From Mucilaginibacter sp. L3T2-6 (GTDB lineage Bacteria; Bacteroidota; Bacteroidia; Sphingobacteriales; Sphingobacteriaceae), in the NCBI RefSeq assembly GCF_030519355.1, contig NZ_JAUMKC010000003.1, forward strand, positions 1 through 64,000: 64,000 nucleotides of DNA, given 5' to 3'. Both the position numbers and the translations under genes were made by a program. The notes under the pieces were generated by a model, which saw nothing but the letters and a program-made list of their open reading frames with translations, had not been told where the DNA came from and did not search any database. Positions 35,547 through 55,091 of this stretch are shown here, piece by piece. Position 1 is the stretch's first letter; every line of letters starts with the position of its first letter.

Positions 35547-36206
35547 ATGGAAAACCGATATCCTTTCAAAAGGCTTGATGAACTGGTGGAATTCAAACTG
35601 GACCCGCTCTCAAAAACATTTAACGCTCCGGCGGAGGAAGAGCAGGAGGCCATGCGGGCGTCGATTTCGGCTTCCCTGGAGGAAATTTTTACAGCCCTGA
35701 ATGCACAGGTTTTTTTGCTGTTTTCAAGTAACGCAGCTGTACCGGTCATACAGGCCTTTAAGAATGCAGTTGCGTGGCTGCATTTACGGGTGGAACAAAA
35801 CCTGGTAATGACCACGGACCTTGCCTCGCAGGAGATGAATAGGTTTTTACTGGAAGGGCTGGAAGAACTGCAGGTTCGCATAGATAAACGGCATGACGCG
35901 CTGGCCGGGCAGCCGGATAATTTGAAACGGATGGCTGCTGACAGTGCCGTGAATTACAAAGTCCTGCTAAAGATGAGTGTTGACCAGTTTGCGATCATAT
36001 TGAAGGCGGCGGATGATGCGCGGATACTGGCTTCGCGCTCCCTGAGCATGGTCTTTCGCAGCGTGATTCCGCATATCTCAACAACGAAAACGGAACACGT
36101 TTCCTGGAAGAGCGCGCGGAGCAGCACGTATAAAATGGAGGAAAATGACAAGTCTGCTGCTATAGCGGTGTTAAAGCAACTGATTGACCGGATACAGTCT
36201 TACTAG
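35547..36206 (+). CDS. Unknown ICE protein with shared C-terminal motif (219 aa)
   Basis: A helical cytosolic protein (EEEQEAMRASISASLEEIF, MNRFLLEGLEELQVRIDKRHDAL). Its last ~40 residues, TKTEHVSWKSARSSTY then a helix to IQSY, resemble the end of the 368-aa protein at 36732-37838 (S-K-x4-[VM]-S-x2-S-x6-Y, then a hydrophobic helix). A similar tail occurs in many uncharacterised Bacteroidetes mobile-element proteins. It ends 7 bases before the XRE gene stop on the other strand. Confidence 0.65.
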   Translation: MENRYPFKRLDELVEFKLDPLSKTFNAPAEEEQEAMRASISASLEEIFTALNAQVFLLFSSNAAVPVIQAFKNAVAWLHLRVEQNLVMTTDLASQEMNRFLLEGLEELQVRIDKRHDALAGQPDNLKRMAADSAVNYKVLLKMSVDQFAIILKAADDARILASRSLSMVFRSVIPHISTTKTEHVSWKSARSSTYKMEENDKSAAIAVLKQLIDRIQSY

Positions 36207-36545: not shown

Positions 36546-36559
36546 AGTAATTTTATGTG

Positions 36560-36778
36560 ATGTCCGGATTACCATTACTCACGAAACCAATTGAAGAGAC
36601 AGGGTTGAGCCTGGCTTTTTGCGAAAAAACCAGGAGCATGGGTTTCCATAATTTGGCGGAGATTTTGGAATTAAGGCCAAAGCAGCTGACAGAAATACCG
36701 GGATTCAGCTATAACTGGCTTGGAGACCTTGTCACCTTCCTGGAGGAAAAAGGATGCCTGCACTTATTACAGCAATAA
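36560..36778 (+). CDS. RNA polymerase alpha-CTD-like mini-protein (72 aa)
   Basis: A stand-alone helix-hairpin-helix domain resembling the C-terminal domain of RpoA: PIEETGLSLAFCEKTRSMGF, NLAEILELRPKQLTEIPGF, then LGDLVTFLEEKG. The alpha-CTD binds UP elements and activators, so a free copy could compete with or recruit polymerase, but that is inference. ATG at 36560 is preferred over the overlapping GTG at 36557. Its 3' end overlaps the 368-aa gene tail to tail by 47 bases. Confidence 0.7.
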   Translation: MSGLPLLTKPIEETGLSLAFCEKTRSMGFHNLAEILELRPKQLTEIPGFSYNWLGDLVTFLEEKGCLHLLQQ

Positions 36779-37838
36779 GCGAAAAAAAATTTTTGTCGAT
36801 GAAGGCGATCATTTGCTGCAAATGACCGCGGACGTGGGCGGCGGTCACCTGGTCGGCGGTATAGCAGTTTTTACTCAGGCTGCGGGGGGACATACAGGCT
36901 TGATTTTTACTGGAAAAGGTCCGGGATATCTGATCGACCAAACCGGTCAGCGTTATTTTACTGAATATACCGCCTTCGAAAAGCAGACGCGCAAAAAGGG
37001 CAATTTGCGGGACCGGAAGTTCAAGTCCTATTTTTTCCAGTAATGAATGGTTGGGTTTTACAACTGCGTTCCCGGTACAGGCAGTCAGCTCTTCGTCTAT
37101 CCAGGACCTGAACATTTGACCTGTGGACGGCCATTCAGGGTCGTAAACCAGTAATATATTTGCGTCAAAAGAAAACCGCGATCTTTCCGCGCGGAGCAGG
37201 CTGCTTTTATCGGTATTGTTTAGGCCGCATAGTTTTTGGCGAACGGTCTCCTGATATGCTTTAAGCAGCCGGATATTATTAAAGTTCAGCGATACCAATT
37301 CGGTTATCAGCCATTCTTCAGTATATTCAGGAAGTCCGGCCGGCCATTGTGTTGCAGTCAGCTCTTCGAGGAAGCGCGCATAGTACTGAAGCGCGGCTAA
37401 AGTCGAGAAACGCGGCAATAGTTTTTGATCGAATAAACTTAAATAATTTTCGATGCTTTTTCTCAGCGAATTATTCTTTATACGACTATTCAGGCGTTGA
37501 ATTAAGGTTTCTTTTCGGCAGGCCAGGCTTTTTACGGTATTGGTAAGATAGGCATGAGGCAGTATAACGTTGGTGTCAAGGTAAGGAAGTGTAAACTGTA
37601 CTAAATATCCGGTCAGCTGTAAGATATCAGCTTGACTAAACAGCGTCGAATTAAGCGGCGTATCGGGCAGTTGCGCGATACGCCGCAATTGGAATGTAAA
37701 GTACCGTTTTAGCTTTACGTCTGGCGAGCCGGAAAGCAACATGCGCTCCCATTCGGCTAAAAGCCATCCGGTGTCGAAAGTCCCGCAGGAATCCGTCTCA
37801 ACGGTAAAGGTAATCCCGGTCAATGCATTCTTCCGCAT
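36732..37838 (-). CDS. Unknown ICE protein (368 aa)
   Basis: A 368-aa mostly helical protein with no signal peptide. A CLFDQK-type central region (IENYLSLFDQKLLPRFSTLA) and a C-terminal motif (SPRSLSKNCYTADQVTAAHV) resemble the tail of the 219-aa protein at 35547. After that tail come extra hydrophobic residues (FFSLIAVISAGILF) that look like read-through past a natural end near IDKNF. I cannot assign a family. It is transcribed towards the XRE block. Confidence 0.6.
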   Translation of the reverse strand: MRKNALTGITFTVETDSCGTFDTGWLLAEWERMLLSGSPDVKLKRYFTFQLRRIAQLPDTPLNSTLFSQADILQLTGYLVQFTLPYLDTNVILPHAYLTNTVKSLACRKETLIQRLNSRIKNNSLRKSIENYLSLFDQKLLPRFSTLAALQYYARFLEELTATQWPAGLPEYTEEWLITELVSLNFNNIRLLKAYQETVRQKLCGLNNTDKSSLLRAERSRFSFDANILLVYDPEWPSTGQMFRSWIDEELTACTGNAVVKPNHSLLEKIGLELPVPQIALFARLLFEGGIFSKITLTGLVDQISRTFSSKNQACMSPRSLSKNCYTADQVTAAHVRGHLQQMIAFIDKNFFSLIAVISAGILFPPGR

Positions 37839-38063
37839 AGCAAACTCTCTACCGCTTCATTACGTGTGTAGTACTGATGGTAAATGACGATAGTGGTTCA
37901 GTCGGGCAAGTCTCAGTCGGAAACATGGCTGCGTTAGGGAGTTGCTGGCTTGCAAAGCGATAACGATCACTGTAAGCTGATTTCAAAATTCTCATGTTTT
38001 TTTTCATAATGGTTAATTTTTGTTTAATTTAAAGTTCCTGGAAAAGTCCGCCAATTTTATTAC

Positions 38064-39113
38064 ATGAACGCCCTGATTACCTATGTCACCGACAAAGCAA
38101 TGAAATTAACAACGTCTTTATCAGCAGGGAAAGGAGTCACTATCATTACCCATGCCTGCTGCTGGGCGTTATATATTACCTACGAGATGATTAGCCTGAT
38201 AGGTATGCACCAGGTATTGGCTCCGGCTTATGTATATGTTGCTTACTATATGGTTAACATTGGGTTTTTCTACGGTACGGCAGCTACTCTTTACGCGATT
38301 TTCACGGTTAAGCGCTGGAGTATTGCCGGCGGCTTTATTCGTTATGCGGGTCTGTCCGTCATTTATTTGTTGATAAAATTGATCATTTCCGCCTTTATCG
38401 AAAATCACCTGAGCGTGCTGCTGCGATTCACCGATAATTTGCAGTTCGTCTTCCCCTGGCTGTTCCGGAGCTGGTACTTCGCCTTGCTTGGCGGCTTCTA
38501 TTGGGCCACAAATCACTTTGCAGTTTATCGGTTAAAGCTGGCAAGCCTGGAAGCCGCCTACCTGCGGCAGCGAATCAGCCCTCATCTTTTATTCAATTCA
38601 TTGAATTTCATTTACAGCGGTGTGCAGGAATGCTCCGAAGATGCAGCAAACGCGGTGCTGCTGCTGTCAGACCTGATGCGTTCCAGCTTAGCCGGACCTG
38701 GAAGTGACGGCAAAATTGCGCTTGGGCAGGAGCTTACCCAGGTAAACCGGCTCATTCAGCTCAACCGGCTCCGTTTTGCGGGGAGAACGCTGGTGGATAG
38801 CAGCGTTGGGGAAGGCAAAGATAAATTTCGAATTGCCCCATTGATATTGGTTACGCTTACTGAAAATATGTTTAAACATGGTGACCTCTCCGGGAAGGGC
38901 CAGCCAGCGCACCTCGCGATTTCGGTTTCGGACGACGGCCAACTGCTGTGGCGAAGCAGCAACCGGAAAATACGCGAAAAGGAATCGCCGGGAACAGGCC
39001 TTGGCCTCGGGTACGTACGCGACCGGCTGGAACAATTTTACCGCGGAAAATATACGCTCGAAATTGAAGCTACTGAAATTGATTACCAAGTGAAAATGAC
39101 TATATGGCTCTAA
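38064..39113 (+). CDS. LytS-type sensor histidine kinase
   Basis: A 349-aa membrane kinase. Four to five helices in residues ~25-150 form the sensor part. The His_kinase region has phospho-acceptor His174 in RQRISPHLLFNSLNF. The ATPase has the N-box LTENMFKHG and G-box GTGLGLGYVRDRL. Typical length for this family in Bacteroidetes is ~350 aa. It overlaps the LytTR regulator by 10 bases, so the two are a pair. It probably senses an envelope or peptide signal and controls the neighbouring LanB/SusCD genes. Confidence 0.92.
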   Translation: MNALITYVTDKAMKLTTSLSAGKGVTIITHACCWALYITYEMISLIGMHQVLAPAYVYVAYYMVNIGFFYGTAATLYAIFTVKRWSIAGGFIRYAGLSVIYLLIKLIISAFIENHLSVLLRFTDNLQFVFPWLFRSWYFALLGGFYWATNHFAVYRLKLASLEAAYLRQRISPHLLFNSLNFIYSGVQECSEDAANAVLLLSDLMRSSLAGPGSDGKIALGQELTQVNRLIQLNRLRFAGRTLVDSSVGEGKDKFRIAPLILVTLTENMFKHGDLSGKGQPAHLAISVSDDGQLLWRSSNRKIREKESPGTGLGLGYVRDRLEQFYRGKYTLEIEATEIDYQVKMTIWL

Positions 39114-39829
39114 ATATCACCTGTTATATCGCTGACGACGAATCGCATGCAATAAAAACACTGGAGCGCTATGCTGAGAAAACAGCCGACCTGGAATTGG
39201 CAGGCACCGCGACGGACGCAGCAGTTGCCCTGGAAGCAATTATGCGGCTTCGTCCGGCGGTTGCTTTCCTGGACATCGGCATGCCGGGAATCGACGGGCT
39301 CCAGCTTGCGGGTCTTCTCGGCGGCCCCACGAAGATAGTATTTGTGACCGGCCGCCGCGAGTTCGGTCCGGAGGCTTTTGCCCTGTCGGCCCTCGATTAT
39401 TTGCTGAAACCAGTTAGCTATGAGCGTTTCCTGCAATGTGTAGCACGATTGAGAACACCGGCGGAACAGCCGGGAACAGCATCCTCATTTTTCTTTGTAA
39501 AGACCGGCGCGAAGGGAAGGCTTGAGAAGATCTGCATTCCGGAAATTATCTATATCAGCGCCGCGCTGAATTATGTGGAAATACATTTCAAAGAACGAAC
39601 CGTGCTCACCTATCTCAGCTTCAGTGACCTCCTGGAAAAACTTCCTGCGGATCAGTTTCTCCGGATCCACAAGTCCTATATCGTCAACCTGGAATCGGTC
39701 AGCGTATTGGAGTATGGGCAGTTGGTCTTGTATAGCGGGATAACATTACCCATCGGGCGGGTTTTTCGCGATACATTACAGAAAACGCTAAGCGCCTCCT
39801 TCCTTTTCAGCAAACGCGAGTCGCCATGA
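39104..39829 (+). CDS. LytTR-family response regulator
   Basis: A 241-aa regulator. The receiver domain (1-~120) has DD at 11-12, phospho-acceptor Asp57 in FLDIGMPGIDG and Lys near the end (LLKPVSYERF). The LytTR DNA-binding domain (~135-235) has IIYISAALNYVEIHF and FLRIHKSYIVNLESV. It is phosphorylated by the kinase just upstream. Its 3' end overlaps the lanB gene tail to tail by 42 bases, so read-through could interfere with lanB. Confidence 0.93.
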   Translation: MALNITCYIADDESHAIKTLERYAEKTADLELAGTATDAAVALEAIMRLRPAVAFLDIGMPGIDGLQLAGLLGGPTKIVFVTGRREFGPEAFALSALDYLLKPVSYERFLQCVARLRTPAEQPGTASSFFFVKTGAKGRLEKICIPEIIYISAALNYVEIHFKERTVLTYLSFSDLLEKLPADQFLRIHKSYIVNLESVSVLEYGQLVLYSGITLPIGRVFRDTLQKTLSASFLFSKRESP

Positions 39830-42733
39830 ACTGCCTATGCCCCTTGCATGCAGGGAAGATAAGTACAGGTAAAGACAATGCCAGACGATCATTTCCTGCT
39901 TCCGCGGCTCAAACCTGAATGTCCGGTTAAGGTTCATATGCACCAGGTCTGCCGTTAACTGCCCGCTGGTTGTCTCCCCGGCAAAGGTCACCGAAACAAG
40001 TGCAGCTTTTAGGTCCTTAAGCGGGCCGGAAAGGTAAACCGGAACTTTAACTTTCGGTTCCAACAGGTCCGCTATTGCCTTCCTGGCCCCCCTGAAGTTT
40101 TGGTCAAGTGCGATTTTAAGCTTTTTCTCCCCGCCGGCTTCCCGGAAAAGATTTTCAGACACGGAAAGGGCCAGAGCCAGAACCTGCTGGTCACCGGGGA
40201 GGAGCTTGTCGAGGATCAGGGCAGTGACATAGATGCCAAACTGGAATTCGGTCCATTCCTTTTTTCCCCGGCGATCCGAAGAGATGAGCGCAAGCACCAG
40301 CAGGCTGCTGCGGTAAAATACTGCTTCCGCTGCAACAATGAACCCGCCATAGCGCTCCAGCTCGCGCTCATAGGTTGCAACCACATACTTTTGTACAAAG
40401 GCACCTGCAGTGACTTCTGTCATTTCCCGGAAGCTGGTCAGCAGCCGCCCGTTGTCGCCGGGGTTAATCAAAAGCCGCAGCCGGAGATGGTGCCCTTCCT
40501 CGTTGTACCGGATAAAAAACCATTGGGTAATGATTTTTTGGTTTTCGCGGATGAATGGTCCTATCAAAACCGCCAGAACTTCATTGGCGGTTTCCTCCGT
40601 GCAGTAGATCTTCAGGAAGAGCCATTCGCTGCCCGGCGGGAAAGTACGTCGCGTCCGCTTACGGTGCACAGTACCATTGCCTTCCGGTTTACGGTAAATT
40701 GTCCCTTCTTTATACAGGAACGCGATGCTTTGACCGGCGAGCGGCCGGTTACCGGTTTTGATGGTTTTAGCGGGCTGAATATATTCCTCGAGGATTAATT
40801 CTTTTTTACCCTGGACGAAGCGAAGAAAGAAATCTGCCTCAGCCGGGTTATCCAGGTCAAAAACCAGCTGCTGATCGTGGCTGCCGCAGATAACAACCTG
40901 GGGCAGTTGTTGCCGCACACGGATGATGGACAGGGCTTCCGCAAATGCAGGGGCGCCAGGCGCGGGTAAGCCGGCCGCATCTATCACCCATCGGGCAGGC
41001 GACACAACAGTTTCACCGATTTGTATGCGCGGGTAGTAATCCAGCCCCGGGAAGAAACGGCCCGGGTCCAGCGACAAATCACTGCAGAGCCCCTGGTGCT
41101 GCAGGTCGCAAAGGAACCGAAAAACAGCAAGCTGGTTACGCTGGTAGTTGAATGCCGAAGCAAGGCGGGGTACAATCCTTTTTCCGAGACGAGGGCATTC
41201 GAGGATAACTTCACCTTGCCGGCAGGAGATCAGCAGTTCGGCCGGGGTAATCACGTTTTGATCCGCGCCGCTATTAAAGGTATTGACCGCCAGCTCATAC
41301 GGATAAACCGGCCTTCGCCGGCTGATGTTATCGGTATGCGGGTCGGAAAGCTGGCTGATGTCAGCGAAAATAATTTCCGGGTTTTGTTCCGCCTCCAGCC
41401 GGGCAATGTCCCGGGAGAGCTGAGCGGCTTCGCCGTTAAAAACCGAAAACCGGGCAATGAGGGCGGCAGGGGTAGCGCCGCCTGCGTATTCAATGTGCAG
41501 GCGGCCCGATGTCTTCCTGAAAATTACCGGGAGCACTGGCGGCAGCGGTTTTGCCGGCAATGGTAAATCAGCCAGCATATCCGCACTGATCACCACGGGT
41601 ATACCCCGTCCTTTGGCCGTAGCCTCACCTGTCAGGCGGAAGAGCAGTTGATGGGTGGCCGTCCATTCCTGGCGCGCTTCCGCCTGGTTTACGGCCAAAC
41701 CCATCCGGTCGATGATTTCCGGCAAACCTGCCCCGCGCGCGAGGTTATCATAATTAACGCCGCAGTCCGGGTCGAGCGCCAGAAGGAGCGGTACCTGCTG
41801 TTCCCCGAAGCGCGCCGAGAAAGCGCGGGCAAACCGGTCCAATACGGTTTCGGTCCGGGCTGAGGTCAGCCGGGCCAGCCCTTCGATAGCCGCCAGGAGT
41901 GCGGCACCTTCAAGCAGGGGCAATGTACCACTGGCCCAAGGCCGCCCGGTAACGGCGTACCAGGTCACCGAAGGGCCGGCTGCTTTATCCAAATCAGCCG
42001 GAAGATCCGGTGACATAGGACAGGCAATAAGCGGCGTTTCGTCCGAAATCAAACGTGACCGTGACCCTGAAAAGAGGACCTGTGCACTGATAAGCTCCCG
42101 GGTAAAGGCCTCCGCCTCCTTAAGTTCAGCACCCGTCAGCCCGGAGACAAAAGCTGACACCTCAGTTATTCCGGCGTTTTTCCCGGATAGCCAGCTGATC
42201 ACACGGTTGAGCAGCCTGGACCCGGGCATGGCCCCGATGCTGAACAGCAGGCGCCCCCCGGAATCTACCGAGCGGATGTACCGCCATTCCCTGCCTGCTT
42301 TGTACAGTGTAGGGTTGGTGCAGATCGCAGAGGCGCCGCTGCTTAAAGCTGGCGCTTCAGGGTCGCCAAAAGGCTGAAGCTGCGGCAATAAGCCCAGCCG
42401 CAGTTCGTTGTCCCCCGCCAAACGCAGGTCGTCCCGATGGCCCCAGCACACAACGGAAAAAGCGGCGAACAAGCCGAAAGGCGTTGGTCGGAAACACATG
42501 CGGTTATAATATTTCAGCAGGGTAAACTGCTGTTTTTGCGTTAAATCCTTGTATGAAAACCCGCGCTTTTCCAGTTCGGCATAAAAAGACCTGCTTGCCA
42601 GCCAGATGGCGTTCCGGAACAGGGGGGTACCCAGCAATTCCGGCAGCCGCTCCGGGTCATAGCGCAGGAAGCTATAGACCGGCGTACGTAAAAACGCCTG
42701 TTCGTACAATCGATAGCCCGTGTTATTTTTCAT
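39788..42733 (-). CDS. Lantibiotic dehydratase (LanB, full length)
   Basis: A 981-aa protein of the class I lanthipeptide dehydratase family. The glutamyl-tRNA-dependent N-terminal domain spans ~1-680, with LRTPVYSFL at the start and YYNRMCFRPTPFGLFAAFS near 80-100. The elimination (SpaB C-terminal) domain runs from ~700, with PPGSEWLFLKIY and WFFIRYNEEGHHLRLRL (~740). Both halves look complete, so it could dehydrate Ser/Thr of a peptide. No LanC cyclase, LanT exporter or protease gene is near. Divergent MauE and DUF6520 genes share its promoter region, and a GGGTATATACCC palindrome lies 11-22 bases before the start. Confidence 0.93.
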   Translation of the reverse strand: MKNNTGYRLYEQAFLRTPVYSFLRYDPERLPELLGTPLFRNAIWLASRSFYAELEKRGFSYKDLTQKQQFTLLKYYNRMCFRPTPFGLFAAFSVVCWGHRDDLRLAGDNELRLGLLPQLQPFGDPEAPALSSGASAICTNPTLYKAGREWRYIRSVDSGGRLLFSIGAMPGSRLLNRVISWLSGKNAGITEVSAFVSGLTGAELKEAEAFTRELISAQVLFSGSRSRLISDETPLIACPMSPDLPADLDKAAGPSVTWYAVTGRPWASGTLPLLEGAALLAAIEGLARLTSARTETVLDRFARAFSARFGEQQVPLLLALDPDCGVNYDNLARGAGLPEIIDRMGLAVNQAEARQEWTATHQLLFRLTGEATAKGRGIPVVISADMLADLPLPAKPLPPVLPVIFRKTSGRLHIEYAGGATPAALIARFSVFNGEAAQLSRDIARLEAEQNPEIIFADISQLSDPHTDNISRRRPVYPYELAVNTFNSGADQNVITPAELLISCRQGEVILECPRLGKRIVPRLASAFNYQRNQLAVFRFLCDLQHQGLCSDLSLDPGRFFPGLDYYPRIQIGETVVSPARWVIDAAGLPAPGAPAFAEALSIIRVRQQLPQVVICGSHDQQLVFDLDNPAEADFFLRFVQGKKELILEEYIQPAKTIKTGNRPLAGQSIAFLYKEGTIYRKPEGNGTVHRKRTRRTFPPGSEWLFLKIYCTEETANEVLAVLIGPFIRENQKIITQWFFIRYNEEGHHLRLRLLINPGDNGRLLTSFREMTEVTAGAFVQKYVVATYERELERYGGFIVAAEAVFYRSSLLVLALISSDRRGKKEWTEFQFGIYVTALILDKLLPGDQQVLALALSVSENLFREAGGEKKLKIALDQNFRGARKAIADLLEPKVKVPVYLSGPLKDLKAALVSVTFAGETTSGQLTADLVHMNLNRTFRFEPRKQEMIVWHCLYLYLSSLHARGIGSSWRLAFAEKEGGA

Positions 42734-42743
42734 GGTTCATAGG

Positions 42744-42755
42744 GGGTATATACCC
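42744..42755. promoter_or_regulatory. 12-bp palindrome between lanB and the MauE gene
   Basis: A perfect GGGTATATACCC lies in the 81-base divergent gap, close to the lanB start. A site for the LytTR regulator or another dimeric protein is possible, though LytTR proteins usually bind direct repeats. Confidence 0.45.
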
Positions 42756-42814
42756 TTTTACTACTGTTTTGCCTTTATCCAGGCCTGTTACTTTGTCTCA
42801 TCAATTGCCACACG

Positions 42815-43252
42815 ATGAGAACATTTTTAAAATCTTTACCGTCCGCAGCATTGGTGCTGCTGTATGCATATGCCGCCGGCAGTAAGCTGGCGGATGTTGC
42901 CGCTTTTCGGCGGGAACTGCACCGGCAGCCTTTTCCGCCGGGAGTGGCCGACGTGTTGTTGTACCTGTTGCCGGCGGCTGAGCTTGCCGTTGCAGCGTTG
43001 CTGCTTTTTGGCCGCACACTGCGGACCGGGCTGCAGGCTTCCCTGGTGCTGCTGGTGCTGTTCACCGGCTACATCCTGCTGGCGATGCTGGGCTACTGGG
43101 AACAGGTTCCCTGTTCCTGCGGCGGGATCATCAGCCACCTGACCTGGGGGCAGCATTTGGCGTTCAACTGCTTTTGCATGGCTGTCAACCTGATGGCCCT
43201 TCACATTTATGCTAAAGGGGAAGCCGGTAACCCTCGACCCGATCCGGCATAA
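42815..43252 (+). CDS. MauE/DoxX-like redox membrane protein (145 aa)
   Basis: A four-helix membrane protein (LPSAALVLLYAYAAGSKLAD, VLLYLLPAAELAVAALLLFG, LQASLVLLVLFTGYILLAM, ending in LAFNCFCMAVNLMALHIY). The CSCGG stretch near 107 and its companion Cys pair are typical of MauE-related proteins, which help thiol oxidation or maturation in the periplasm. It is divergent from lanB and followed after 25 bases by the DUF6520-like gene. Confidence 0.82.
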   Translation: MRTFLKSLPSAALVLLYAYAAGSKLADVAAFRRELHRQPFPPGVADVLLYLLPAAELAVAALLLFGRTLRTGLQASLVLLVLFTGYILLAMLGYWEQVPCSCGGIISHLTWGQHLAFNCFCMAVNLMALHIYAKGEAGNPRPDPA

Positions 43253-43277
43253 TGTTTTATCTTTTATTTTTTTCATT

Positions 43278-43571
43278 ATGAAACGTGTTCAAAAAAGCGT
43301 GTCCATGGTTGCTTTGGCGCTTGGATTAACCGCAGCACTGGGTTTTAATGCCCATGCGAAAAAATCGTTCACCACTTACTGGTTCGACACCACCGCTGCG
43401 GGCGTACCGACCAGCTATGATCCCGACGGCGCCCAGTGCGCGCAGGCCTCCGGCGACTACTGCTCGAAGGAGTACAACGCCAGCCAGCTGAACTTCAGCG
43501 GCGGCATCCCGGTCAGCGTAAAGGCCGGGCAGGAGAACCTGCAGATCCTTGCCGAGCGCAAAGGCAACTAA
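43278..43571 (+). CDS. Secreted DUF6520-like peptide (97 aa)
   Basis: From the ATG at 43278 a clear signal peptide (MVALALGLTAALGFNAHAK) is followed by a ~70-aa mature part with two cysteines (AQCAQASGDYCSKEY) and FTTYWFDTTAA. DUF6520 peptides often sit beside MauE genes in this phylum and their role is unknown. The two Cys may be oxidised by the MauE/TlpA proteins. As the only small secreted product next to lanB it is a candidate substrate, but it lacks a typical lantibiotic leader. A terminator follows. Confidence 0.75.
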   Translation: MKRVQKSVSMVALALGLTAALGFNAHAKKSFTTYWFDTTAAGVPTSYDPDGAQCAQASGDYCSKEYNASQLNFSGGIPVSVKAGQENLQILAERKGN

Positions 43572-43582
43572 TTGTCAATCCA

Positions 43583-43613
43583 AGGCCCGCCGCTCCCCGG
43601 CGGGCCTTTTTTA
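43583..43613. terminator. Bidirectional intrinsic terminator
   Basis: AAGGCCCGCCG pairs with CGGCGGGCCTT across a short loop, followed by TTTTTT on the plus strand. It lies between the convergent DUF6520-like and SusD genes and could serve both. Confidence 0.8.
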
Positions 43614-44969
43614 TTACCTCGGGTTTTGCGGGATCCCGCTCAGCTGGATCACGATGTCCGGTATGGGCAAGACATACCGCGGGTCGTTCGGCGGCAGCGT
43701 GTACAGCTGTCCGTTCAGCTGTCTTTGGAGCGTCACTTCCCTCCCCGGCTCCTCGTTGAACCGCCGTAGATCCGACCAGCGGAGCCCGCGCAGCAGCAAT
43801 TCTTTTCTTCTTTCCGCCAGCACCAGTTCCAGCACCTCCGCCGCTGTGGCTGCGGCCGGCGGACTGTACGTGCCGGTACGGTACCGCTTGTCCAGCAGGG
43901 TCTGCAGGTCGGCCATGGCCGCATCCTTTTGGCCCATGCGGGCCGAGGCTTCCGCGCGGATGAGGTAGAGTTCATCTGTCGCGACCCCGTTGAAGAGGTC
44001 GTCGGTGCCGGTATAGCTCCCTTTAAAAGTCTGGCCCGGCGCGGCGGGCGTAAAGAACAGGACCTTGCGCAGGTCATCCGGCTGGTATAGGGCATACAGG
44101 CTGGTGTCGATGCGCAGGCGGGAGGTGTTATTGGTCAAAGACGTGTAATAGATCCGGCTGTGGAAGATCACTTCGTCATTGTATTTCCGGAAAGGATGGA
44201 GTTTGGCGGTGCTGGCGGTATTGTAGTCCAGCAGGGTGCTGTATAGTTTCAAAGCCTGGTCAGCATACTGGAAGGCATGCGGGTAGTCGGCCATGGACAG
44301 GTACACCCGGGCGAGCAGGCCGTTACCCGCTGCCAGGCTGGGCCGGGTTTTGATGCTGACGGTCTGCGGCAGGTAGCCCAGGCTTTCCTGCAGGTCGGCG
44401 GTGACCTGGCCGTAGGTGGCTTTCACAGATGCCCGGGTGCTCTTTTGGGTGATATCGGAGGAGGTGCGGACCGGCATGCCCAGATCGGTTGCGGCCGTTG
44501 AAGCATGATAGGGCTTGCAGAACAGCTGCGCGGCGGCATACAGGCCATAGGCCCGGAAAAACAGGGCGCTGCCTTTTTCGGCGGCATACCGCGGATCGGC
44601 CCGCTGTGTGGCGCTCATTTTGGCAAGGCCTTCGAGGACGACGTTGCTGTAGAAGACCTGCTGGTAGCAATAGTTCCAGTCGATCACGTCGGGGCTGCCT
44701 TCATAGAGGTCCTTGTTCCAGGTATAGGCATTGCGGAACATGGGGGTGGTGACCGAGGCAAAGGCTGCATCGGTCACGTAATAATCGTCTGAGGACACCT
44801 CGCCCAGCGCCGGGAGGTTGAGGTTCATGGTGTTGGCATTGTCGAGCAGGGCCTGCAGGTCCTGGAAGGTTTGCGGGACCACGAGGGTCTGGTCAGGCTT
44901 TTTGTCCAGGAAAGTTTTGGTGCAACTTGTTAGCAGGCCTAGTAATAAGATATAAAGTAACTTTTTCAT
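43614..44969 (-). CDS. SusD/RagB-family outer-membrane lipoprotein
   Basis: A 451-aa surface lipoprotein: lipobox LLTSC near residues 12-16, then FLDKKPDQTLVVPQTFQDLQALLD, TPR-like helices and the C-terminal conserved ELVLAERRKELLLRGLRWSDLRRF and a late WDYYLPIP-type DPRYVLPIPD. It forms the lid over the SusC transporter and captures the nutrient. It begins 9 bases after the SusC stop, so they form an operon. Substrate unknown. With lanB nearby a peptide is possible. Confidence 0.9.
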   Translation of the reverse strand: MKKLLYILLLGLLTSCTKTFLDKKPDQTLVVPQTFQDLQALLDNANTMNLNLPALGEVSSDDYYVTDAAFASVTTPMFRNAYTWNKDLYEGSPDVIDWNYCYQQVFYSNVVLEGLAKMSATQRADPRYAAEKGSALFFRAYGLYAAAQLFCKPYHASTAATDLGMPVRTSSDITQKSTRASVKATYGQVTADLQESLGYLPQTVSIKTRPSLAAGNGLLARVYLSMADYPHAFQYADQALKLYSTLLDYNTASTAKLHPFRKYNDEVIFHSRIYYTSLTNNTSRLRIDTSLYALYQPDDLRKVLFFTPAAPGQTFKGSYTGTDDLFNGVATDELYLIRAEASARMGQKDAAMADLQTLLDKRYRTGTYSPPAAATAAEVLELVLAERRKELLLRGLRWSDLRRFNEEPGREVTLQRQLNGQLYTLPPNDPRYVLPIPDIVIQLSGIPQNPR

Positions 44970-44978
44970 AATCGTGAA

Positions 44979-47900
44979 TTAAAAGTGAGCCCTTACGCCA
45001 AGGGAATAAGTGTGAACGGGCCGGATAGTGGAAGTCCCGTAAACGTAATCGGGGTCCAGGCTGTCTTTGTTCGCGCGCCAGAGCAGGCCCAGGTTGCTGG
45101 CATACGCATAAAACGTGATCTTGCCCAAGGTCCAGGAGAAGCGTACATCCTGCAGGCGGATGTTATCGCCTTTGTCCACCAGTATACTAGACCCCAGGTA
45201 GGCCGCGTCGCGGCTACCGACGCCGGTGAGAGACAGGGAGGGTACGCTGGTCTGCTGTTCGTCGCCGGGTTTTTGCCAGCGCTTATCAAAGTCGCGGTGC
45301 CCGCTCCAATTATTGATCAGGTCGCTATAGGAAATGGAGCTGCGGTGGAAATAGTAGCCGAACTTATAGGTGATATTGGCGCTCAGGCTGAACTGCTTCC
45401 AGGTGACGGTATTCATCACCGAGCCGAACACCGGCGGCAGCGCAGGGCCGTTATAAACCAGATCCTTCACCGTCGCATTGGCGGCGATGGCGGCGTAGTC
45501 TTTGCTGGGCGCGCCGTTCAAATAGACCACCGGGTCGCCGGTGGCCGGGTCCAGGCCGGCCCATTTATAGCTGTAGATGCCCAGCACCGGTTTCCCCGCC
45601 AGCGGCGGGGAATTGGGTGAGAGGTAAGCGCTGACCGGGCTGGTATACTGGTATTTGGTGACCTTATCGGTTACATAGCTGAATAGGAAGCGGGTTTGCC
45701 AGCCGATGGCTCCTTTTATGTTGACGGTATTTAATTCAATGTCCAGGCCATGGCCCGCAATGGATGAGCTGTTGAGGCTGTAGCTGTACCGGTCGCTGAC
45801 AAAAAACCCGGTGGTCGGGTCGAGCGCGACGCTGCCGATCTGGTCGGTGCCTTTTTTGGTGAAATAATCGAGGCTGCCGCTCAGCCGGTTGTTCTTTGTT
45901 TCAAAATCCAGACCGATGTTGAGCGTTTTCACTTTTTCCCAGTGCAGGTCGGGGTTGGGCGGGGTCAGGATGATCGCAGCCGGCTGGTTGGTGTACGGGT
46001 CGGTGGCATAAACGGCGGTGGTGAACGCGGTGACGGTCTTGTTGACATTGCCGGTCACGCCGTAGCTCGCCCGCAGCTTCAGGTAGGGCAGCCAGTCCAT
46101 GTGGTAGAAGCTTTCTTTGCTGGCTTCCCAGGCACCGCCAAAGGAATATAACGGCACGCCCTTCTGGTTGGCGTTCACGCCGAACAGGTTCGATTCGTCC
46201 TTCCGGGCGCTGGCCGATAAAAAATACCGCCCCGCATAATTATAGTTCGCGTTCAGGTAGGCTGACACGTACCGGTCGGTCTGGTCGCTGAGATTGGCGA
46301 CATAGGGGATGGTCAGCGAATTGCCGCTCGGGTTAATGGTATAATAGTTCGTATAGTCGACGGGCTGGCTGACCAGGATATCCGGGTCATAACCGTAAAG
46401 CCGGGACGTCATACTGCGCGTATGCGTATCGCGCACCTCCGCCCCGGCCAGCACGTTCAGCTGGTGCCGCTCCCCGAAGACATGGCCGTAGTTCAGCTGG
46501 AAGCGGCCCGAGCGCGCATCCAGCGCCCCGTGCTGGCTGTCGAGGATGCCCGCATCCGGCACGATATACTGGTTGCCCGGCTGGGTAAATTCGTTGATGA
46601 GGTTGCGGGTGTAATACGTATCCCTGCTGTACAAAAAGCTGCCGTTCCGGTCCGCATGCTGGTACTGGTACAAGGCCTCGGCGCTTAGGTCCCGGAAGAC
46701 ATCATACTTCAGGTTGAACTTCAGCCGCACATCATTGCTGCCGGACACATTGTCCGCCAGTCCCAGTTCCGCCACAGGCCGGTACTGCCAGTCCAGGAAA
46801 CCGTTGCCCTGCGCGGCCCCTGAAAACGACAAAGGGTAATCTTTGGCCACCGCGCCCGCCAGCTGCGCATAGGGGTACAGCGTCTTCCCGCCGCCGCTGT
46901 TAATGCCGCTATAGCCGGGATTATCATTCACCCCATGCGTGGAACTGTACGACAGGTCTGCCCCGGCCATTAAATTCTTCAGCAGCCTGAAATTGCTGAC
47001 CGCATGCAGCGTATAGCGGTTATCCGAATTGCCAACAAGATTTGACCGGTTGTCATCAAAACCGCCGGAAACCAAATAGTTGTAGCGCTCCCCGCCACCA
47101 TCCAGGCTCAAACTGTATTGCTGGCTCAGACTTTTCCGGTAAAAGTATTTGCCAAAATCGTTGCGGACATCGATTTTGCTTAACGCAGCTAATTTCGTTT
47201 GCAGGTCCGCATCGCTGAGCTGCCCGTCCCGGTTTTGGATCATCAGCTCCACCGCCGGGCTCAGCACCGGCTTCGCCGGGTCGTTCTCCGCCGCCGAATA
47301 AAAGCCCGCTTGGAACAATTGCTGCTCTACCCCGATAAAATCCGCCGAAGGCAAAAACGCCGGGTTGTAGAACAGGTCCGGCTTCCCGCCCGCCGTCCAG
47401 CTGGCATTGAACGAAAGATGCGCCGGACGGTTGTATTTCCCGTGTTTGGTCGTCACCACAATGACCCCATTGCCGGCCCTTGCCCCCCAGATGGCCGAAG
47501 CCGCGGCATCCTTCAAAACGGTGATGTTCTCTACATCGTTCGGGTTCAGGTCATGCAGGTCCCCTTCAAAAGGAAAATTATCGACCACCACCAAAGGGGA
47601 ATTGTCCGACAAGATCGTGCTCCGGCCCCGGACGCTCAGCTGCTGATGCCCCGGAGCGCGGTTATCGAATGCGAGCGACGGGGTGATGCCGTCCAGCCGG
47701 GCGGTGAGGTCGGTTGCAGGGTTCCTTTCGATCAATTCTTTGCTGACGGCGCCGTAAGCGCCGGTAGCCTGCTTCCGGCTGACCTGCTGGTAGCCGGAGG
47801 AAACCGTAACTTCCTTCAGCTGGCTTTCATCAGGGCTTAAAATAATGGCGGTCAGGGTCACGGTATCGGTGATATCGACGAGGCGGGGCACATAACCGGT

Positions 47901-48113
47901 AAAGGTGATTTCCAGCATGCCCTGTTTGCGGGGAACGTCGAGGTTAAACAGGCCGCGGGTATCGGTATGCGTACCTGCATTGGTGCCGGCGAGTTTAACG
48001 GTGGCGCCGGGCAGCGGCCGGTGGTCTTCGGTAAGCACGCGGCCGCGAACGGTGATTTGCGCAGTGGCGCAAAAGCCGCAGGTAATTAATAAAAACAGCA
48101 GTAAAATTCTCAT
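44979..48113 (-). CDS. SusC/RagA-family TonB-dependent transporter
   Basis: About 1044 aa from the ATG at 48113 (MRILLLFLLITCGFCATAQ; frame open to 48173). Signal peptide, carboxypeptidase-regulatory-like domain (~20-100, TVRGRVLTEDHRPLPGATV), plug (VSVSSGYQQV-type EVTVSSGYQQVSRKQATGAYG; VRGRSTILSDNSPLVVVDN) and a 22-strand barrel to the end. It imports ligands with energy from TonB. The TlpA-like gene stops 20 bases upstream. Confidence 0.93.
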   Translation of the reverse strand: MRILLLFLLITCGFCATAQITVRGRVLTEDHRPLPGATVKLAGTNAGTHTDTRGLFNLDVPRKQGMLEITFTGYVPRLVDITDTVTLTAIILSPDESQLKEVTVSSGYQQVSRKQATGAYGAVSKELIERNPATDLTARLDGITPSLAFDNRAPGHQQLSVRGRSTILSDNSPLVVVDNFPFEGDLHDLNPNDVENITVLKDAAASAIWGARAGNGVIVVTTKHGKYNRPAHLSFNASWTAGGKPDLFYNPAFLPSADFIGVEQQLFQAGFYSAAENDPAKPVLSPAVELMIQNRDGQLSDADLQTKLAALSKIDVRNDFGKYFYRKSLSQQYSLSLDGGGERYNYLVSGGFDDNRSNLVGNSDNRYTLHAVSNFRLLKNLMAGADLSYSSTHGVNDNPGYSGINSGGGKTLYPYAQLAGAVAKDYPLSFSGAAQGNGFLDWQYRPVAELGLADNVSGSNDVRLKFNLKYDVFRDLSAEALYQYQHADRNGSFLYSRDTYYTRNLINEFTQPGNQYIVPDAGILDSQHGALDARSGRFQLNYGHVFGERHQLNVLAGAEVRDTHTRSMTSRLYGYDPDILVSQPVDYTNYYTINPSGNSLTIPYVANLSDQTDRYVSAYLNANYNYAGRYFLSASARKDESNLFGVNANQKGVPLYSFGGAWEASKESFYHMDWLPYLKLRASYGVTGNVNKTVTAFTTAVYATDPYTNQPAAIILTPPNPDLHWEKVKTLNIGLDFETKNNRLSGSLDYFTKKGTDQIGSVALDPTTGFFVSDRYSYSLNSSSIAGHGLDIELNTVNIKGAIGWQTRFLFSYVTDKVTKYQYTSPVSAYLSPNSPPLAGKPVLGIYSYKWAGLDPATGDPVVYLNGAPSKDYAAIAANATVKDLVYNGPALPPVFGSVMNTVTWKQFSLSANITYKFGYYFHRSSISYSDLINNWSGHRDFDKRWQKPGDEQQTSVPSLSLTGVGSRDAAYLGSSILVDKGDNIRLQDVRFSWTLGKITFYAYASNLGLLWRANKDSLDPDYVYGTSTIRPVHTYSLGVRAHF

Positions 48114-48132
48114 ATCAAATGGTTGCTTAGGT

Positions 48133-49434
48133 TTATTGGATGGTTTGGGCTGGACGGATAACGAGGATATCAACAGGTCTTTTTTTGACGTTCAGGTCAA
48201 GCCCGGATCTGCGCAGTTCTTTTTGCAGGGCGGCGAGATCGCTGAGATCGCACCTGAGCTGCAGGTCAATGGGTTTTTCGTATCCCGTTTCGTTTATATA
48301 GGGTGTGAGTAATTTCCGGAAGCGCTGTGCGATGTCCATATCGAGGCTGCTGATGCCGAGATTGCGGAGGGTCAGTCCTTTGGCGGTTTCGGAAAAAAGG
48401 GGTTCGCCGCCTTTGCTTTCGATAGCCGCTGTGCCGGGTATGCGGGAAAGGACGAGGCAGTCCTGTTCGCGTTTTTCCAGGGCTGCGCGGATATGGTAGC
48501 GGGCGCCGAAATAGCGGTTGAGGTCGGTGGCCATGACCTCGCTGATGTCGCCGGTGAAGCCGGGGGGCAGGGTGAGCTGGTAGCTGTAGCCGTATTGTTT
48601 GATCCACTCGTGGAAGCCGGGGCCGCCGCCCTGGTCGATGATGCGCTTCAGGGAATCGGGCAGTTCGACGGAACAGCGGTTGGCGAGGTCGAACATGGGG
48701 TCTTTCCTGATGAAGGCCTGCTGGTACAGGGCGAGCGGGGAATGGTTGAGGGCGACGGCAATGATCTTTTCGGGGGTCCTTTGGAATCCTTCGGGGGAGC
48801 TGACGCCGGGCAGGTACGGGGTAATGACGGACTGGAAGACGACCTCGCCTTTGCCGTTGCCGTTGGCGAGCAGGGGCTGGAGGGGGTCGAGGCTGAGATC
48901 GTCTTTGCGCTGGGCGATGCTGTCGGTGTGGCCGTCAAGGGCTTTTTGGATGGCCGCTGCGCTGACGTCTTCGCCGTAGGTCATGGCGATGACGGCGCCG
49001 TTCCTGATCCATACTTCAAAGGGTATGGAATTATGGGGAAAAAGTGCGCTGAGCAGGTAATCGTCGGTGATGGAAGGCAGGCGGAGGGCGTTCTTTTTAA
49101 AGAAGGCCTGGACGGTTTTGCTTTTTTCGCGGGTGACGAGCAGGAACTGGATTTTGCCCGCAAACTGGTTTTGCAGGGTGTCGTATTTGGGGAGGAGGTG
49201 CAGGCAGGGGGTGCAGTAGGTGCCCCAAAAATCGAGGATGAGGAGCTGGTCGTTAAACTGCGACATCCGGATCTGGTCAGCAGGCTTTCCTCCTGCTTCA
49301 TAATTAAGGAGGCCGGATATTTGCATATCGGGCATTTTATCGCCGGTTTTAAGGGCTTTATAGGTGTTTCCTGGTTGTGCGTATGCCTGGAAGAAAAGGC
49401 ATAGGAAGGCCAGGAGGCTTGTTTTGAGCTTCAT
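48133..49434 (-). CDS. TlpA-like thioredoxin fused to a TIGR03435-like domain
   Basis: A 433-aa exported protein. Signal peptide, then a thioredoxin fold with redox cysteines Cys74 and Cys77 in FWGTYCTPCLHLLPKY (~25-170). A middle segment of ~100 residues follows. The C-terminal part (~330-433) resembles the TIGR03435 family, ending in ALQKELRRSGLDLNVKKRP then VDILVIRPA. The TlpA domain would reduce disulfides in the periplasm. The second domain has no known function. It is upstream of susC in the same operon. Confidence 0.85.
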   Translation of the reverse strand: MKLKTSLLAFLCLFFQAYAQPGNTYKALKTGDKMPDMQISGLLNYEAGGKPADQIRMSQFNDQLLILDFWGTYCTPCLHLLPKYDTLQNQFAGKIQFLLVTREKSKTVQAFFKKNALRLPSITDDYLLSALFPHNSIPFEVWIRNGAVIAMTYGEDVSAAAIQKALDGHTDSIAQRKDDLSLDPLQPLLANGNGKGEVVFQSVITPYLPGVSSPEGFQRTPEKIIAVALNHSPLALYQQAFIRKDPMFDLANRCSVELPDSLKRIIDQGGGPGFHEWIKQYGYSYQLTLPPGFTGDISEVMATDLNRYFGARYHIRAALEKREQDCLVLSRIPGTAAIESKGGEPLFSETAKGLTLRNLGISSLDMDIAQRFRKLLTPYINETGYEKPIDLQLRCDLSDLAALQKELRRSGLDLNVKKRPVDILVIRPAQTIQ

Positions 49435-49480
49435 TTGGTGGTGGTTCGGTAAAATATTCAGTTAGCTTGTCCGGGCCTGT

Positions 49481-49774
49481 TTAGCCGCTGTCATTCGTCT
49501 GGCTCTTTCCGCAGGCGGGGCATCTGCAATTGTCCTCGCGCAGCTCGTGGATGGCGCGGGTGAATGCGATGACCTGGTCGAAGAGGCTGGCGATGTCGGT
49601 TAGGAGGGGTCTTGTCCCGGGGTTTTCCTTTTCTTTGGTTTGGGCACAAAGGATAAATATGTCCATGAGTGCTGTCTCGATGGCTTCGGGGGTGTATTCT
49701 GCAAAGAATACGCGGATCACCTGGTCTGGTGTCCGGGTGCCGAAGTCTTTTATATCGATGATCATAGCGTCCAT
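49481..49774 (-). CDS. Unknown 97-aa protein with C-terminal CxxC
   Basis: A 97-aa cytosolic-looking protein: MIIDIKDFGTRTPDQVIRVFF, helices (ETALMDIFILCAQTKEKE, TDIASLFDQVIAFTRAIHEL) and a C-terminal CRCPACGK that could bind zinc. It lies 46 bases before the TlpA gene on the same strand and is the first gene of the susCD operon. Function unknown. Confidence 0.65.
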   Translation of the reverse strand: MDAMIIDIKDFGTRTPDQVIRVFFAEYTPEAIETALMDIFILCAQTKEKENPGTRPLLTDIASLFDQVIAFTRAIHELREDNCRCPACGKSQTNDSG

Positions 49775-51281: not shown

Positions 51282-51428
51282 TTAGCAAAATTAAATTGGT
51301 TTGAGAATTGGATAAGTCCGGCTCGGTTTGTTCGGGTACTAAATACTTGCGCCGAAATAAATCAGATTATAATATAAGTTTATACTTATCGATTAGAAAT
51401 TCGTTAACTTCTTGTGGAGATTCCGCTC

Positions 51429-51510
51429 AAACTGACCACCTGATTCCGATTTAAAGTGACCAGGGTATTCCGGACCAAAGTGACCACCTGATTCCGGAGC
51501 AAAGTGACCA
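51429..51510. repeat. Four 24-bp direct repeats (IS21-like element end)
   Basis: AAAGTGACCA (first copy AAACTGACCA) recurs at 51429, 51453, 51477 and 51501 with exact 24-base spacing, with CCTGATTCCG or GGTATTCCG between. Multiple spaced TGACCAC repeats are typical of IS21-family termini. No istA or istB gene remains beside them. The overlapping frame 51393-51656 on the minus strand, which reads GGHF-PE repeats, is a consequence of this DNA. Confidence 0.6.
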
Positions 51511-54311: not shown

Positions 54312-55091
54312 TCTTGCTGCAAATTATTAAAAAAGTGGAAACAGCTTCGTTAAACTGAGTTGCTGGTCTTCAAAAAACAGGCAATCGATATAAAAGCCTG
54401 ATCGACCTGTCCGATGCGGTAAAGTCGGGCTGCCGTCAAAATTATTGCTATCATCGGCATAATACGTTTCCAGCAAACCCCAGGGATTGGGATCCGGGAA
54501 TACCTGGAACTGGGCTCCGCCAAATTTAAACTACTTCCCAAATTCAGCTTCCTTTATCAATACTTTCAGTTGGATTCAACCGACATGGATGCTGTCTTCT
54601 TTGTACGCGGCGCACATCCGAAAGACGTATTAGTGCCGGATGTGCCTGATCTTGACCCGGAGTTTTCGACGGCGTGTGACCACGCCTGGGCCAGGTTTAT
54701 GGCTAATGACCGATTGCAGGAGTGGATACTGGCGGAAATGCGTGGATTGGAAGGCGGTGGTTTGCTGAAGTATTGCTGCCGGGTTAGAAGGTGAGGCCGG
54801 AAACCTTGTTTCGGCTGGCAATGGATTTGACAATGTTCTGCGCTGGACAGGCGATACGATTAACCTGGCTGAATTGGCTTATGGTATCTGGCTGACCGGG
54901 CAAATCAATAATGGACAGATTTCGGTTACAGAGATTTTAGAATGCCTGGAGCGGGTGTTTCGCGTTCGGCTCGGTAAACCGCACCGGCGATGGCAGAGTA
55001 TAGCGGCAAGGAAGCCATTGGGGTATGCGAAGTATATGGATGAGAGAAGGTGGCGATTGAGAGGAGGGTGGAGGATGAGTTGGGGAGGTAA
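54312..55091 (+). pseudogene. rteC: rteC relic with frameshifts
   Basis: RteC regulates excision and transfer of CTnDOT-type elements. Clear pieces are KFKLLPKFSFLYQYFQLDSTD, DPEFSTACDHAWARFM with DRLQEWILAEMRGLE, and LRWTGDTINLAELAYGIWLTG then LECLERVFRVRLGKPHRRW and AARKPLGYAKYMDE. The frame breaks near 54780 and again near 55045; in the shifted frame ..AIERRVEDELGR ends at the TAA 55089-55091. The N-terminal part (RYKSLIDLSDAVKSG) carries a stop and lacks the usual EIxFFK stretch. It is a dead copy of a conjugative-element regulator. Confidence 0.8.

Follow-up and report, generated by a model that had tools for sequence, protein, structure and literature searches.

A LanB dehydratase, a LytS/LytTR kinase-regulator pair and a small gene encoding a threonine/serine-rich peptide form, in our judgement with rather more confidence than doubt, a conserved unit in which LanB is predicted to dehydrate the peptide, likely without ring formation. 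The unit was recognized in a stretch of 64,000 nucleotides from Mucilaginibacter sp. L3T2-6, hereafter the window, and traced through related loci of one bacterial family. A second set of genes adjoining LanB, namely SusC, SusD, TlpA, MauE and a DUF6520-like peptide, proved to be a separable module.

Gene order in the window and in related loci

Gene identities in the window were assigned via Pfam and NCBIfam profile matches (Table 1), and LanB relatives were taken with their flanks from contigs and genomes of one bacterial family. The 62 LanB loci thus collected are related to each other, and L048 and L079 are a single locus counted twice. The kinase is found in 57 of these loci, the regulator in 55, the peptide gene in 52, o368 in 30, SusCD in 26 and MauE in 24, and 47 of 54 loci have LanB convergent with the regulator. 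Gene order is kept in near Mucilaginibacter and Pedobacter relatives, where p97-TlpA-SusC-SusD runs convergent with DUF6520-MauE and LanB is divergent; on the other side, LanB is convergent with the regulator-kinase pair and o368 lies beyond the kinase.

Table 1. Features of the window, with positions counted from its first nucleotide
Feature	Position	Strand	Basis
Conjugative-element region: serine recombinase, TraM, TraJ, TraG ATPase, DUF4133, DUF4134, helicase, HTH	14910-36465	-	
o368, 368 aa, predicted all-helical, on the strand of the tra genes	36732-37838	-	Conserved ORF 10 nt after the peptide gene
52-codon gene, Thr/Ser-rich peptide, predicted LanB substrate	37849-38007	-	Conserved divergent ORF, purifying selection, fixed promoter element
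LytTR-type repeat region, peptide promoter	38055-38093	-	Overlaps the start of the kinase gene
LytS-type histidine kinase	38064-39113	+	PF06580 (His_kinase)
LytTR response regulator	39104-39829	+	PF00072 + PF04397
LanB dehydratase, 981 aa, glutamylation and elimination domains	39788-42733	-	Lant_dehydr_N + Lant_dehydr_C, catalytic residues
MauE membrane protein, accessory module	42815-43252	+	PF07291
DUF6520-like two-Cys peptide, secreted-looking, accessory module	43272-43571	+	23 aligned sequences share two Cys and one Gly without exception
SusD, accessory module	43614-44969	-	PF14322/PF07980; closest solved chain 8ypt
SusC TonB-dependent transporter, accessory module	44979-48173	-	TIGR04056; closest solved chains 8ypt/8ypu, also RagA 6sli
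TlpA-like thioredoxin protein, accessory module	48133-49434	-	PF00578/PF00085
p97, 97-aa small helical protein, first in the TlpA-SusC-SusD operon	49481-49774	-	No Pfam/NCBIfam family

A preliminary description of the DNA from LytS to p97 had named LytS, LytTR, LanB, MauE, SusD, SusC, a TlpA-like protein and a 97-aa ORF, and the Pfam and NCBIfam matches confirm these genes and their positions. The TIGR03435 domain that it ascribed to the TlpA protein is not among the NCBIfam matches of that protein. Its view that the locus departs from the canonical class I lanthipeptide type is supported, its remark that LanC is missing holds for the whole genome, and the gene set that it delineated recurs in other genomes. 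The same description saw no clear precursor; a precursor-like gene lies just beyond the coordinates that it covered, and the conserved o368 was also overlooked.

The peptide gene, its promoter and LanB

The peptide gene of the window is divergent from the LytS kinase gene. Peptide ORFs of 43-67 aa are likewise divergent from the kinase in the 52 LanB loci that carry them; the head of these peptides is basic, and their Thr-rich tail has the consensus TDPT..T.T..T.TH. Between the first and second halves of 56 candidates, K+R content falls from 25% to 6% and Thr content rises from 9% to 27%, a leader/core layout. Upstream of LanB-linked LytS kinases, 26 of 57 regions contain a divergent ORF of 36-85 aa with at least eight Thr in the last 32 residues, against an expectation of 0.025 from dinucleotide shuffles. 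In two genomes, no ORF with at least six Thr was found beside 21 LytS kinases located away from listed LanB genes (the largest count being four Thr, with just 63 bases of upstream sequence available for one kinase), versus four out of four LanB-linked kinases, whose ORFs hold 6 to 10 Thr. All 24 peptide pairs compared have a pN/pS below 1 (median 0.32; the pairs were picked by protein identity, which favours low values); the gene evolves like coding sequence under purifying selection.

With 52 aa, one Cys and six Thr in its last 32 residues, the peptide of the window has fewer Thr than many of its relatives. After removal of three doubtful ORFs, 53 peptides remained, of which 39 contain no Cys, 11 contain one and three contain two or more; neither the FxLD nor the Bacteroidetes LxLxKx5L leader motif occurs in any of the 53. 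No Pfam or NCBIfam family fits the peptide, the few weak single-member matches looking like chance. A search among 5.8 billion proteins returned 31 relatives at E<=0.01, the named ones being 'hypothetical' or 'uncharacterized'. Gene maps of the LanB loci display no exporter or leader protease recurring around the peptide gene, and we found no description in the open-licence literature of the peptide family, of DUF6520 or of a LanB unit carried by a conjugative element of Bacteroidota. At one further locus, L115, a kinase, a regulator and a Thr-rich peptide stand beside SusCD, TlpA and MauE, and LanB was not detected by tblastn.

A Gibbs search of 52 peptide promoters gave GTTGGTGTAATAAAG as the best 15-mer, which in 44 of the 52 ends 46-57 nt before the ATG. 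When scored with this motif model, which was trained on the same promoters that it scores, 46 of 56 peptide promoters lie above the 95th percentile set by 405 upstream regions of unlabelled ORFs. Matches of at least 10 bits are found upstream of 36 of 55 LanB-linked kinases versus 3 of 21 control kinases (medians of 12.5 versus 5.7); since three controls also match, the promoter element is enriched near LanB-linked kinases and not exclusive to them. In 10 of the 52 loci a 9-mer recurs 21 bp away with at most one mismatch, where 1.3 such loci would be expected; the largest count for any spacing in 200 shuffles is 7. A spacing of 28 bp is likewise in excess (8/52 loci versus 1.45 expected), and a shift of -21 tops the 36 shifts tested (z 2.66). 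In the window promoter, the proximal copy GCGTTCATGTAATAA at 38057-38071 is good, the distal copy about 21 bp upstream (38082-38093) is degenerate, and no 9-mer pair with at least six matches is found at 21 bp. Two articles describe 9-bp LytTR repeats with 12-bp gaps (PMC6193735) and canonical LytTR sites of 9-bp repeats 10-13 bp apart (PMC11347149).

A LytTR-type site was also considered as the switch of LanB, MauE or SusCD and rejected, with no clear enrichment above the 95th percentile (LanB 7/65, MauE 3/26, TlpA 1/31, SusC 1/37 and p97 0/11). As the element and the repeats lie at the peptide promoter and not clearly at the other genes, the peptide-o368 operon is, judging from these motifs, the likely target of the LytTR regulator.

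The LanB of the window carries both domains far above cut-off and is the only LanB-domain gene in the genome. A profile built from 22 LanB relatives aligns near full length with NisB (4wd9) and with 9g04. The window protein is identical at the residues aligned to NisB R83, R87, T89, R464, R784, R786, E823, R826 and H961, which we take to be catalytic, and has no Asp aligned to NisB Asp299, presumably also an important residue. LanC (PF05147) is absent from the whole genome, so ring closure is likely missing; in the wider set, LanC lies within 15 kb of 4 of 47 LanB loci and some LanC is encoded in 13 of 32 genomes. We hold with high confidence that the partner of LanB is the Thr-rich peptide. 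Given the peptide-LanB pairing, the lack of LanC and the mostly Cys-free peptides, LanB would most likely dehydrate this peptide, rather than the DUF6520 peptide, into a Dhb-rich product that is likely to be ring-free.

The SusCD block, o368 and the conjugation genes

MauE, TlpA and SusC occur together in 23 of the 62 LanB loci, 20 of these with o368, and the presence of the block beside LanB is more than chance. LanB and the block also occur apart, in both directions: no listed LanB lies within 12 kb of 31 of the 55 MauE copies (10 of the 31 being within 40 kb of TraG), and 28 peptide-LanB loci, a count from which two loci whose SusD is damaged or unlabelled are left out, have none of MauE, TlpA or SusD in the fetched flanks. 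The SusCD-TlpA-MauE-DUF6520 block is therefore a separable module. Twelve MauE loci away from LanB were read, and in two of them SusC is only distant (22-23% identity). On the C5 element of the same genome (L116), a C39 peptidase-like gene and RteC come after the block, and according to Pfam a C39 peptidase stands by the block in L111, L116 and L117, three loci without LanB; since the block is found beside LanB or C39 genes, it appears to be a module that meets different peptide enzymes. A pair formed by a protein of roughly 210 aa and a C39 peptidase-like protein was observed near the block in L116, L110, L111 and L117, in L110 by position and length only; it would represent another kind of peptide-maturation cassette adjoining the block.

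LanB and MauE have a common divergent promoter region of 81 bp. The DUF6520-like peptide has a signal-peptide-like head and two invariant Cys; against DUF6520 (PF20130), the window peptide obtains an E-value of 0.13, short of the cut-off, and all 23 aligned sequences, the window peptide among them, obtain E<=1, with a best value of 2.8e-8. Of 12 aligned p97 proteins, 8 carry a C-terminal CxxC; p97 was considered as a precursor or a known fold, which was rejected as its alignment indicates a helical protein with no significant PDB fold match. The SusC sequence resembles 8ypt/8ypu and RagA. RagA imports peptides, and a receptor role of SusCD is possible on the basis of this resemblance. Elsewhere in the window, at 51428-51510, an 87-aa ORF contains three copies of a repeat recurring every 24 bp.

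For o368, whose predicted fold has a pLDDT of 81.5, comparison with Pfam, NCBIfam and PDB folds gave nothing significant. Its position suggested RteC, a candidate that was discarded: the profile matches 0 of 30 members, and PF09357 is found only at other places. One of these, at 54540-55044 (+) of the window, is apparently a broken gene, with RteC (PF09357) matching as two pieces within short frames; intact copies lie elsewhere in the genome.

Loci with o368 are linked to conjugation genes. In a test of 46 LanB loci, one more being excluded at a contig end, 17 of the 23 loci with o368, the window included, have TraG within 40 kb, versus 2 of the 23 lacking o368 (p = 1.3e-5, for loci that are not independent); among the six o368 loci lacking TraG at this distance, one lies on a contig that ends about 16 kb away. 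The peptide-o368 pair leads directly into tra genes on one strand in L061, L090, L093, L095, L097 and L102. In the window, the tra genes (14.9 kb to 36 kb) are also downstream of the pair and on its strand; two opposite-strand ORFs (35547-36206 and 36557-36778) stand between o368 and the tra genes, making a single transcript into tra unlikely there. TraG is absent within 40 kb of 27 of the 46 LanB loci, and control of conjugation thus cannot be the general function of the unit.

The conjugative-element region of the window includes DUF4133 and DUF4134 proteins, which we take to be TraF-like and TraE-like, respectively, and no PF03432 relaxase was found in the window. Its serine recombinase gene overlaps tRNA-Met. 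The 3' end of this tRNA was examined as an att repeat and rejected, being present in a single copy with up to two mismatches allowed, and the ends of the element were not found. GC content is 0.48-0.58 from 16 to 48 kb versus 0.43-0.475 outside.

Proposed mechanism, alternatives and relation to known systems

According to the mechanism that we propose, LanB would use Glu-tRNA to convert tail Thr/Ser into Dhb/Dha, and the peptide would then be exported via a route not encoded at the locus and detected by LytS. Binding of the LytTR regulator to the promoter repeats of the peptide gene would in turn increase the peptide-o368 transcript. The result would be an autoinducing switch, which in element-borne loci may also feed into transfer, while the SusCD-TlpA-MauE-DUF6520 block would be separate and at most help the peptide across the outer membrane. 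The peptide is likely to be a self-inducing signal or a bacteriocin, and that its product signals and gates conjugation is a minority reading. We regard as improbable the most elaborate form of the latter, a Bacteroidota peptide pheromone controlling a conjugative element, in which the LanB-made, ring-free and Dhb-rich peptide would be exported, re-enter via SusCD and act through LytS/LytTR on both the peptide-o368 operon and transfer.

The Thr-rich peptide may instead be an autoinduced bacteriocin-like antimicrobial made by LanB, with nisin-type induction via LytS/LytTR, sometimes carried by mobile elements and favouring their hosts. Autoinduced class I bacteriocins usually combine a LanB with a kinase-regulator pair, and the 27 loci remote from TraG require a role beyond conjugation; yet no exporter, immunity gene or leader protease recurs around the peptide in the gene maps, LanC is rarely near and most peptides lack Cys, and we consider this possibility unlikely, though a serious contender. 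The last two observations, together with the lack of LanC in the genome, also weigh against a normal lanthipeptide whose rings would be closed after LanB by a LanC or another thiol donor encoded elsewhere, which we judge very unlikely even though a minority of the peptides, including that of the window, do contain Cys and some of the genomes do encode a LanC.

Of similarly low probability, if not slightly lower, is the proposal of the preliminary description that LanB modifies the DUF6520 peptide or one imported by SusCD, MauE and TlpA carrying out thiol steps. The recurrence of MauE, TlpA and SusC with LanB and the short divergent promoter region between LanB and MauE speak for it, but the two modules occur apart in both directions, for which reason the DUF6520 peptide was rejected as LanB substrate in our main reading. 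Moreover, LanB is cytoplasmic while SusCD delivers only to the periplasm, the DUF6520 peptide has a signal-peptide-like head and two invariant Cys, and C39 peptidases take the place of LanB beside some copies of the block. A MauE/TlpA thiol step would fit this two-Cys peptide and not the mostly Cys-free LanB peptide. The putative assignment to DUF6520 comes from relatives that match the family, the window peptide alone not reaching the cut-off.

The unit resembles class I lanthipeptide systems (nisin, pinensins, Pedobacter LanB/LanC clusters; PMC7268733 and PMC3091789) in its full two-domain LanB with conserved catalytic residues, its short precursor-like peptide with a basic head and a Thr/Ser-rich tail, and its adjoining kinase-regulator pair. 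It differs from them by the lack of a genomic LanC, the mostly Cys-free peptides devoid of FxLD and LxLxKx5L motifs, the LytTR regulator and the frequent proximity of tra genes. In two loci of the same bacterial family, L096 and L103, LanB lies within 130 bp of LanC together with several ORFs of 72-78 aa, an arrangement resembling canonical lanthipeptide clusters. Cyanotins, Cys-free relatives of lanthipeptides, likewise have dehydratase-linked core peptides, some without Cys, but are tied to LanM synthetases (PMC7268733), unlike the LanB without cyclase encountered here.

LytTR-controlled peptide systems (Agr and bacteriocin/LytTR regulatory systems; PMC4227749 and PMC6193735) share with the unit the LytTR regulator and a likely positive feedback, and their 9-bp direct repeats with 12-bp gaps have candidate counterparts before the peptide gene here, clear in only part of the loci; the Bacteroidota host, the predicted LanB modification and the link to conjugation genes set the present unit apart. 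Riemerella elements carry a bacteriocin exporter and a TonB receptor as cargo (PMC6491836). The loci described here resemble such Riemerella and CTnDOT-type elements by tra genes beside peptide-related and TonB-type genes and by a two-component pair, and TraG ATPase and other CTn Tra proteins are indeed found near the window locus. Unlike CTnDOT-type elements, they have o368, with no RteC match, in place of a regulatory gene such as RteC; the sister element on C5 has RteC as well as its C39 peptidase-like gene.

LanB genes without LanC are easily taken for orphans, whereas those analyzed here are paired, in most loci of one bacterial family, with a specific peptide gene. This gene falls outside Pfam and NCBIfam, and genome mining guided by LanC or Cys would overlook such genes; if our reading is true, this is a peptide-making system that LanC-keyed searches would not find. 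Two questions thereby become testable, namely what role LanB plays without a cyclase and whether Bacteroidota conjugative elements may be switched by a modified peptide signal.
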